A stretch of DNA of 64,000 nucleotides from Natrinema marinum (GTDB lineage: Archaea; Halobacteriota; Halobacteria; Halobacteriales; Natrialbaceae): positions 496,001-560,000 of the forward strand of contig NZ_CP100763.1 in assembly GCF_024296685.1 (NCBI RefSeq), given 5' to 3'. A program made the position numbers and the translations under genes. Positions 45,020 through 48,340 of the stretch are shown one piece after another. The first letter of the stretch is position 1; every line of letters starts with the position of its first letter. The notes under the pieces were generated by a model. That model had not been told where the DNA came from. It saw only the letters and a list, made by a program, of their open reading frames with translations, and made no database searches.

Positions 45020-45271
45020 CTACTGTTCGCCGAACAGTTCGTCGACCGCCTCCCGCGCCGCGAGCGCGGCGTCGTCGGCGACCTGCTCGGGGTCGGCCTC
45101 GTCCTCGGGTGCGTTGAGGTAGACGTCGACTTCGAGCACGCCGTCCTCGAACGTGACGGTGACGTCACAATCACGCACGTCGGATTGCTTGTACCGCGAG
45201 AAGATGAGGCCCTCCGCGGCGTCGGAAGCCGTCTGAACGACCGTCTCGTCGGACGGCTCGTCGCTCGACAT
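45020..45271 (-). CDS. DUF3194 family protein
   Basis: 83-aa acidic protein with an ASDAAEGLIFSRYKQSDVRD core and VTVTFEDGVLEVDVYLN strand, characteristic of DUF3194. The family is encoded directly after prefoldin beta in many archaea, and here its ATG follows the pfdB stop with no gap. A role in folding or stress is inferred from context only. Confidence 0.9.
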   Translation of the reverse strand: MSSDEPSDETVVQTASDAAEGLIFSRYKQSDVRDCDVTVTFEDGVLEVDVYLNAPEDEADPEQVADDAALAAREAVDELFGEQ

Positions 45272-45670
45272 TTACGCGCCGCCAGCGCCCGGGCCGCCGG
45301 GGCCGGCCGGGCCGCCCATGCCGCCGCCACCGCCGAGCAGTTCCTCGAGGTCCTCCTGGAGGCTCTCGAACTGGTCCTGGACGCGCTCTTCCTGCTTCTC
45401 GAGGGTCTCGAGGCGGATCTCGAGCGTATCGACTTTGTCCTCGAGGTCCTCCTCGGCCTGGTCGTACTCGGTCTCGACGAGGAGTTCGCCGACGTTGCGG
45501 TACATCGTCGTGTCGTCGTCGACGTTCTCGAGTTCCTCGAGGGCGCTTTCGGCCTCGGTCAGGCTCGATTCGGCTTCCTGTTTCTGGACGGCGACTTCCT
45601 GTGCCGTCTCCTGGAGGTCCTGCAGCTGCTCGATTTTCTCCTGTGCTTCCGGCGGCAGGTTTCCTTGCAT
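45272..45670 (-). CDS. pfdB: prefoldin subunit beta
   Basis: 132-aa coiled-coil chaperone subunit. N-terminal and C-terminal heptad helices ([40 protein letters not shown]) surround a beta hairpin, and the chain ends in a Gly-rich tail ([19 protein letters not shown]). Prefoldin hands unfolded proteins to the thermosome. It is directly followed by DUF3194 and lies at the end of the rpl37ae-rpoP-pcc1 run. Confidence 0.95.
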
Positions 45671-46422: not shown

Positions 46423-46689
46423 TCACCGATCCTCGAGAACTCGCGTACCCGCGTCCGCGGTCCGCTCTGCGACATCGACCAGCGAGAACCAGGTGTTCAG
46501 CGCCGCTCGCAGGGCGACGGCGTCGGTGGCGTCGATCTCGAGGACGAGGACGGTGCCCTCGCGCTCGAGCGTCGTTTGCGAGCGGTCGTCGTCGATCTCG
46601 CCGATCTCGCGGCGGACGCTCGCAGCGACGAGTCGGGCACGCGACGGTGTCTCGTAATCGAATTCGAGGGTCGCGTCGTGAGAAGGCAC
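46423..46689 (-). CDS. pcc1: KEOPS complex subunit Pcc1
   Basis: 88-aa small alpha/beta protein. It contains ATLEFDYETPSRARLVAASV and ALRAALNTWFSLVDVAER, typical of Pcc1. The KEOPS complex makes the t6A modification on tRNA. It follows rpoP with a 4-nt gap. A small size and acidic surface are normal for the family in haloarchaea. Confidence 0.9.
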   Translation of the reverse strand: MPSHDATLEFDYETPSRARLVAASVRREIGEIDDDRSQTTLEREGTVLVLEIDATDAVALRAALNTWFSLVDVAERTADAGTRVLEDR

Positions 46690-46693
46690 GCCG

Positions 46694-46828
46694 TTACTGC
46701 ACGTCGACTTCTTTGACGTCGCGGCTGCGTTCTTTCAGGAGTACGCGGTGGCCGCAGTAGGGACAGCGGACGCCGCCGTACTCGTCGAGTTGGACGTCGC
46801 GTTTACAGCGAGAGCACTTGTAACTCAT
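46694..46828 (-). CDS. rpoP: DNA-directed RNA polymerase subunit P
   Basis: 44-aa zinc protein with CSRC and CPYC motifs ([12 protein letters not shown]..., [13 protein letters not shown]), the archaeal RpoP/Rpb12 signature. It lies between L37Ae and pcc1 as in other archaea. Its Zn ribbon is intact, in contrast to that of the upstream L37Ae. Confidence 0.95.
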
Positions 46829-46846: not shown

Positions 46847-47110
46847 TTATTCGTCGTCCTCTGCGAGCGCAGCGCGGATGGAGCGCTGGACGGTGCGGCC
46901 GGCAGGGGTCTCCGGGCGGTACGCGCCGCCGGTAAAGACCTCGCCGGTCTCCTCGTTCTTCCAGATGCCGGTGCCGACGCGAGTGACGTCGTCGCCGTCG
47001 ACTTCGGCGTTTTCCATGTCGTCTTCGATCTCGCTGACGCGACGGCGCGCGACGCGGCCGTAGCGGGCACCGAAGCGGCCCGCGCTGCCGACCGTTCCTT
47101 TCTTGGCCAT
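46847..47110 (-). CDS. rpl37ae: large ribosomal subunit protein L37Ae, cysteine-free
   Basis: 87 aa from the ATG at 47110: [20 protein letters not shown] is typical of L37Ae, and [20 protein letters not shown] with [14 protein letters not shown] covers the usual zinc-ribbon half. The protein has no cysteine at all: positions normally holding two CxxC pairs read around [14 protein letters not shown] and WKNEETGEV. Ribosomal zinc is therefore replaced by other contacts. It is the first gene of the rpl37ae-rpoP-pcc1 run. Confidence 0.92.
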
Positions 47111-47218: not shown

Positions 47219-47425
47219 TCAGGAGCCGGCGAGCCGTTCGGCGACCGGCCACGCCAGTAGCTCGCCGAAGACGAGACAGAGTGCGGCGGCGTAGCCGACC
47301 GGTGCGAGCGGTGCGGCGAGCAGCCCCGTGGCGACGCCCGTGGCTGCGATCAGCGTGCGAGCCGCGAGGCCGCTCACCGCCAGCAGCGGGATCAGGGTCA
47401 GGACGGCGTCCGGTCGCTCGAGCAT
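47219..47425 (-). CDS. small two-span membrane protein
   Basis: 68 aa with two hydrophobic helices (AVLTLIPLLAVSGLAARTLIA; LAPVGYAAALCLVFGELLAW). An AT-rich stretch (ctaattatatctaattaca) just upstream is a likely promoter. Conserved small membrane proteins of this type occur near ribosomal genes in haloarchaea. Function unknown. Confidence 0.65.
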   Translation of the reverse strand: MLERPDAVLTLIPLLAVSGLAARTLIAATGVATGLLAAPLAPVGYAAALCLVFGELLAWPVAERLAGS

Positions 47426-47560: not shown

Positions 47561-48340
47561 CTACTGGAACTCCGCGTCGGCCAGGACATCGTTCAAGTCC
47601 GCGCGGATCCGCTCGCCCATCTCCCGGTCGCGAGCGGTCGTCACGACGCGGTTCTCCTGAACACTCGAGCCGTCGCGGATGAGCATGCGGACGTTGCCGC
47701 CGTCGTCGGCGCGGGTGACCTTCGCGCGCAGTCCGGACTGCGAGCCCTTGCCGCCAGCGTCGATGGGGCCCGGAATCACCTTCTTGACGTGGGGGTGGTC
47801 CGCGACCGTGTGGATGGCGTTCATTCCGGCTCGGCCGCCGATGAGCGTCGTGTGGCTGCCGCCGATCTTCTCGGCCGGCGGGGTCTCGACCACGTCGAGC
47901 GCGCGATTGCCGCGGCGCTCGAGAACCGCTTGCACTGGATCGTCGTCGTCGACACGGTAGAACGGGTAGTGGATGTCCTCACGGACGGCCCGGATCACGG
48001 CTCGCGTTCCGCCCGCGTAGACCTCCTCGGGCCGTTTCCGGCGGATTTCGTCGCCGATCAGCCCGGCGAAGTTCCGCAGTTCGACGACCTCGTTCTCGCC
48101 GTCTTCCGGCGTCGTCGTGATCGTCGTCTCGCCGAGGATTTCCTCCTCGTCGTCGGTCGCAGATGCCGACTCGCCGGTTCGTTCGGTGCCGTCCGTGCCC
48201 TCGTCGTCCCCCGCCAGCATCGTGATGGTCGCTCTGTCGCGTCCCGCCTCGAGGACGATCGCCTCGGTGTTTGTCTCCCGACAGACCAGACAGAAGTCGC
48301 CGGGTTTCTCGAGGGGCGAAGCGCAGTGGCGACACTCCAT
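47561..48340 (-). CDS. DUF2103 metal-binding domain protein
   Basis: 259 aa. An N-terminal CRHCASPLE...CLVCRET zinc ribbon, an acidic linker, and a C-terminal region with GGSHTTLIGG, AIHTVADHPHVKKVIPGPI and GLRAKVTRADDGGNVRMLIR, the DUF2103 signature, whose C-terminal part is predicted to bind RNA or metal. It is a common archaeal single-copy gene, but its biochemical function is not established. Confidence 0.88.
   Translation of the reverse strand: MECRHCASPLEKPGDFCLVCRETNTEAIVLEAGRDRATITMLAGDDEGTDGTERTGESASATDDEEEILGETTITTTPEDGENEVVELRNFAGLIGDEIRRKRPEEVYAGGTRAVIRAVREDIHYPFYRVDDDDPVQAVLERRGNRALDVVETPPAEKIGGSHTTLIGGRAGMNAIHTVADHPHVKKVIPGPIDAGGKGSQSGLRAKVTRADDGGNVRMLIRDGSSVQENRVVTTARDREMGERIRADLNDVLADAEFQ

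Follow-up and report, generated by a model that had tools for sequence, protein, structure and literature searches.

A Cysteine-Free Form of Ribosomal Protein eL43 in Natrinema and Its Patchy Distribution among Haloarchaea

Introduction

The stretch of DNA analysed here (64,000 nucleotides from Natrinema marinum, referred to as the window) encodes a ribosomal protein eL43, also called L37Ae, that contains no cysteine. The locus raises the question of whether this protein is exceptional, a zinc-independent version explained by life in a salt-adapted lineage, as the initial annotation proposed, or an ordinary member of its family, and of how the cysteine-free state came to be distributed as it is. 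The archaeal protein lies close to the subunit interface and makes many rRNA contacts (PMC12605026). In a 2021 study (PMC8305020), a C2-C2 zinc finger was described in eL43 of all Halobacteriales and in the euryarchaeal proteins outside haloarchaea, while Haloferacales lacked it and it was very rare among Natrialbales; a report cited there describes the zinc finger of the yeast protein as important. The existence of cysteine-free eL43 and its heterogeneity in haloarchaea have therefore already been published.

Gene, neighbourhood and copy number

The features of the window that bear on this question are as follows.

46847..47110, minus strand: rpl43e (eL43/L37Ae), cysteine-free form, 87 aa (PF01780, no cysteine)
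46937..47014, minus strand: cysteine-free block of 26 residues (33-58), from the protein alignment, with coordinates derived from residue numbers
46694..46828, minus strand: rpoP (RNA polymerase subunit P), zinc ribbon intact (NF001606, 101 bits; synteny)
46423..46689, minus strand: pcc1, KEOPS subunit (PF09341, E 7.8e-21)
45272-45670, minus strand: prefoldin subunit (PF01920), farther on past pcc1

As initially annotated, the 87-residue translation of the eL43 reading frame has no cysteine. The protein belongs to the family, with a score of 80.8 bits against the Pfam profile Ribosomal_L37ae (cut-off 21.9) and with the flanking motifs GRFGARYGR and TP.G..V.RSIRAAL in place, while the C2-C2 zinc ribbon is missing. 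Its scores fell just short of the cut-off of NCBIfam PRK03976.1 (86.5 versus 87) and well short of that of TIGR00280 (73.7 versus 95.8), as expected because the zinc ligands are gone.

The gene lies upstream of rpoP, which is followed by pcc1. In 168 of 170 genomes rpoP is the downstream neighbour of eL43, whichever cysteine state the latter has, so the window gene occupies its native neighbourhood. The RpoP of the window retains its CxxC...CxxC ribbon, in agreement with the first reading of this locus. Downstream of pcc1, the prefoldin subunit gene is followed by a small ORF of 83 aa (together 45020-45670, minus strand). Closely upstream of the eL43 gene is a gene for a DUF2103 protein, predicted to bind metal and carrying an N-terminal CxxC...CxxC (47561-48340, minus strand), and between the two lies a hydrophobic ORF of 68 aa (47219-47425, minus strand) for which no Pfam or NCBIfam match was found.

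The window gene might be a decayed copy, with a working zinc form encoded elsewhere in the genome. A profile search of the whole genome (a single contig of 3.77 Mb, 99.9% completeness) found one eL43 locus above the family cut-off and no second, zinc-binding paralogue. The idea draws on weak zinc-ribbon matches and nothing more: a 15-bit match in the same genome falls on a zinc-ribbon protein similar to transcription factor S, and a 12-bit match on a large unrelated ORF. Furthermore, nothing interrupts the reading frame, and eL43 of 20 other Natrinema genomes is 94-99% identical to the window protein. A decayed copy is thus refuted for this assembly, unless the assembly misses sequence, and is hardly conceivable. 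No plasmid-borne eL43 was found in PLSDB. Second matches to the eL43 profile in eight other genomes were generic zinc ribbons or transposase-type ribbons, apart from one genome (G222) in which the second match scores alike (81.2 bits), with the two matches at opposite ends of a single contig.

The window gene is an ordinary copy of eL43 in an already known cysteine-free state, and the protein itself is unremarkable. The lack of cysteine, the single copy, the native operon and the lack of a second paralogue are consistent with the proposal of a zinc-independent version, and judging from the sequence, the protein probably works in the ribosome without zinc. In the same Natrinema genome, eL37 and eS27 (VRCSDC...CAVC) keep their cysteines, which indicates that zinc has not been given up by the ribosome in general.

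A shorter block in place of the zinc ribbon

An alignment of 156 distinct haloarchaeal protein sequences located the difference between the two forms. The block with four cysteines has 30 residues (for example, HDSHACPECGADNVSRAGTGIWQCGTCDYE in genome G133); that of the cysteine-free form has 26, the four missing positions lying in the first knuckle. The first CPxC knuckle aligns with xVDGDDV, which is four residues shorter, and the second CxxC with NEETG; the GTGIW strand is unaltered, as are the flanking segments. The earlier description of both CxxC motifs as replaced by acidic residues around an intact GTGIW was accurate in that both knuckles are gone, but the change is no residue-for-residue swap.

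The pattern xVDGDxVxRxGTGIWxNEETGExF is common to the cysteine-free forms with few departures. Every one of the 94 distinct cysteine-free sequences carries the deletion of four residues, along with what is essentially one block, VDGDDV...GTGIW.NEETGE. This common block makes a single origin probable and disfavours repeated decay.

In the AlphaFold model of eL43 (mean pLDDT 49; VIA-align Z of at most 3.1), strands are weakly seen at residues 34-37, 40-46, 49-52 and 58-60, flanking both turns. Given the low pLDDT, the structural reading is founded on the sequence and not on the model. In the shorter block that replaces the zinc ribbon, acidic turns, VDGDD and NEETGE, take the place of the two CxxC knuckles. 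Hairpin pairing, together with the surrounding rRNA, may then do the work of zinc in holding the beta fold.

Distribution across haloarchaea

A profile search found eL43 in 389 of 391 haloarchaeal genomes. The scores were bimodal: 266 genomes scored at most 86 bits and 123 scored at least about 106 bits, and the gap between them was empty. Cysteines were counted in 170 sequences representing all 86 haloarchaeal genera. No cysteine was present in 105 of them and four were present in 65 (one of these has five); none had one to three. Score class and cysteine count agreed in every sequence read, low scores going with zero cysteines and high scores with four (once five). The conservation of the cysteine-free state in 105 of 170 sequences excludes chance or sequencing error.

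By score class, 68% of the genomes (266/389) share the state of the window protein, which removes the exceptional status first given to it; within haloarchaea, the C2-C2 zinc ribbon is not a defining feature of eL43. The opposite generalization, that all haloarchaeal L37Ae proteins lack cysteine, is equally wrong, with 123 genomes in the four-cysteine class.

The two forms are spread unevenly over families and genera, whose names were assigned by matching named records and are firm only where the match is exact. The window genome belongs to genus g1, identified as Natrinema because several named Natrinema records are 100% identical over about 3.2 kb to other g1 genomes. Natrialbaceae (f1), the family of the window, is cysteine-free with genus g22 as the sole exception, and family f4, which includes Halorubrum (g30), is cysteine-free with g79 as the sole exception. 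Families f2, f5, f6, f10 and f11 have four cysteines throughout. Families f3 (including Halovenus, g60), f7, f8 and f9 (Halococcaceae) are mixed, and both states occur within the single genera g50, g46 and g69. In the rest of the phylum, outside the class, scores were mostly like those of the four-cysteine form; judged by score alone, genus g98 and genomes G534 and G647 are lower.

These results bear on the suggestion that the cysteine-free form evolved as an adaptive response to high salt or zinc scarcity and made the lineage zinc-independent. The form is confined to a salt-living class, by the scores and by PMC8305020, and its block is slightly more acidic (6.5 D+E residues per block versus 5.7 in the four-cysteine form). 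However, equally halophilic families keep four cysteines, genera g50, g46 and g69 hold both states, and eL37, eS27 and RpoP of the window genome retain their cysteines. The change is particular to eL43; neither salt nor a general dispensing with zinc explains it. Adaptation of this kind is unlikely, and the salt-adapted lineage offered at first as the reason does not account for the pattern.

State changes and exchange of the block

An RpoB' tree built from 58 genomes (one gene, quick search, SH-aLRT support only) required 14 changes of state, at least seven of them forced by well-supported (starred) branches, compared to a mean of 19 for shuffled states; these counts carry no direction. The cysteine state is therefore only partly clustered on the tree. 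In a Halorubrum genome (G201), RpoB' at locus L348 is split into two frame pieces that overlap (residues 1-386 and 382-598), owing to a frameshift or a sequencing error.

So many changes could mean that the zinc ligands were lost independently and repeatedly in several families, with no transfer of one block, and zinc-ribbon disruption in ribosomal proteins reportedly recurs in bacteria (Makarova, Ponomarev and Koonin, 2001). Against such a history stand the one deletion and one block of the 94 distinct cysteine-free sequences and the lack of intermediates with one to three cysteines among the 170 sequences. Repeated loss is thus improbable.

In the mixed genera, DNA identity between the two states was 47-58% in the block, compared to 74-92% in the N-terminal part and 77-89% in the C-terminal part. 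In genus g50 (Halococcaceae), the N-terminal parts of the cysteine-free genomes G194 and G059 are nearest to four-cysteine congeners, while their blocks are nearest to cysteine-free ones. For G194, comparison of the N-terminal part with the rest gave a Fisher p of 2e-5, and with the C-terminal part alone 0.03; for G059, the values were 2e-4 and 0.006, all uncorrected, for pairs picked after seeing the alignment and for segments of about 100 nt in which 10-16 sites outside the block are informative. The first seven codons (ATG GCT AGA AGC AAA TCG GGA) are identical in the cysteine-free G194 and the four-cysteine G215 and unlike those of other g50 members, and the block and tail of G194 match its cysteine-free congeners. 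The apparent mosaic in g50 is suggestive, though no proof, of exchange of the block by recombination over repeated loss; it is less clear in g46 and g69.

The eL43 N-terminus MGNQEV was seen both in a four-cysteine protein (L096 of G156, family f8, genus g46) and in a cysteine-free one (L175 of G131, family f1, genus g15). Its presence in both states is possibly a further hint of exchange within the gene.

Collectively, the single copy, the conserved place in the operon, the all-or-none states, the shared block and the many changes of state are all shown by the sequence data. The window gene is very probably an ordinary single eL43 in its cysteine-free form, with a shared block that became patchy as four-cysteine and cysteine-free versions replaced each other. 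The cysteine-free block probably arose once, and homologous recombination within the conserved flanks is the probable vehicle of replacement. A bolder proposal, which we hold tentatively and with some doubt, is that a stretch of about 80-90 nt passes as one piece from species to species, and perhaps from family to family, by recombination in its conserved flanks. An essential ribosomal protein would thereby switch between the zinc and zinc-free forms in both directions, with perhaps a regain of zinc in g22 and g79, and with no compensation in 23S rRNA. Among 15 genomes, no 23S rRNA column tracked the cysteine state beyond shuffled labels; some extracted stretches carried flanking sequence, and well-filled columns alone were counted. 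This is as expected if the two forms of eL43 are interchangeable parts.

Relation to known systems

Compared to the published description, the present analysis adds the all-or-none nature of the two states, the one shared block of 26 residues and the repeated alternation, including that inside three genera. The distribution matters more than the single protein, and it corrects the statement in PMC8305020 that all Halobacteriales have the zinc finger. That statement is too strong, as cysteine-free members exist in Haloarculaceae (Halovenus, Natronomonas relatives and Halocatena) and Halococcaceae. Several natural pairs of related species differ in the zinc-binding capacity of one ribosomal protein, which makes the role of zinc in eL43 directly testable in genetically tractable archaea.

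Bacterial ribosomal proteins L31, L33, L36 and S14 occur in zinc-binding (C+) and zinc-free (C-) versions with a patchy distribution, and the members of such pairs are often paralogues in one genome and often zinc-regulated. Haloarchaeal eL43 differs in that each genome has one copy and the states alternate between species; a second copy of the opposite state is absent from the window genome.

Among archaea, HVO_0654 of Haloferax volcanii, listed in PMC8305020 as without zinc finger, is likewise cysteine-free but comes from a family other than that of the window, whose group is Natrialbales. The eL43 of Haloarcula marismortui (1s72, 3cpw, 4v9f) shares the family, the flanking segments and the order of archaea with the window protein; it differs in having a four-cysteine zinc ribbon and a block four residues longer. 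The initial annotation called for comparison with ribosome structures, and a cysteine-free eL43 with the same block is indeed present in a solved ribosome (PDB 9l94, chain R). This protein scored 137 bits to the window protein, compared to 99 bits for the Haloarcula chain 3cpw_Y. By analogy with 9l94, the window eL43 would be part of the assembled large subunit. Of the sequences read, those of genus g43 (family f4) come nearest to 9l94_R.
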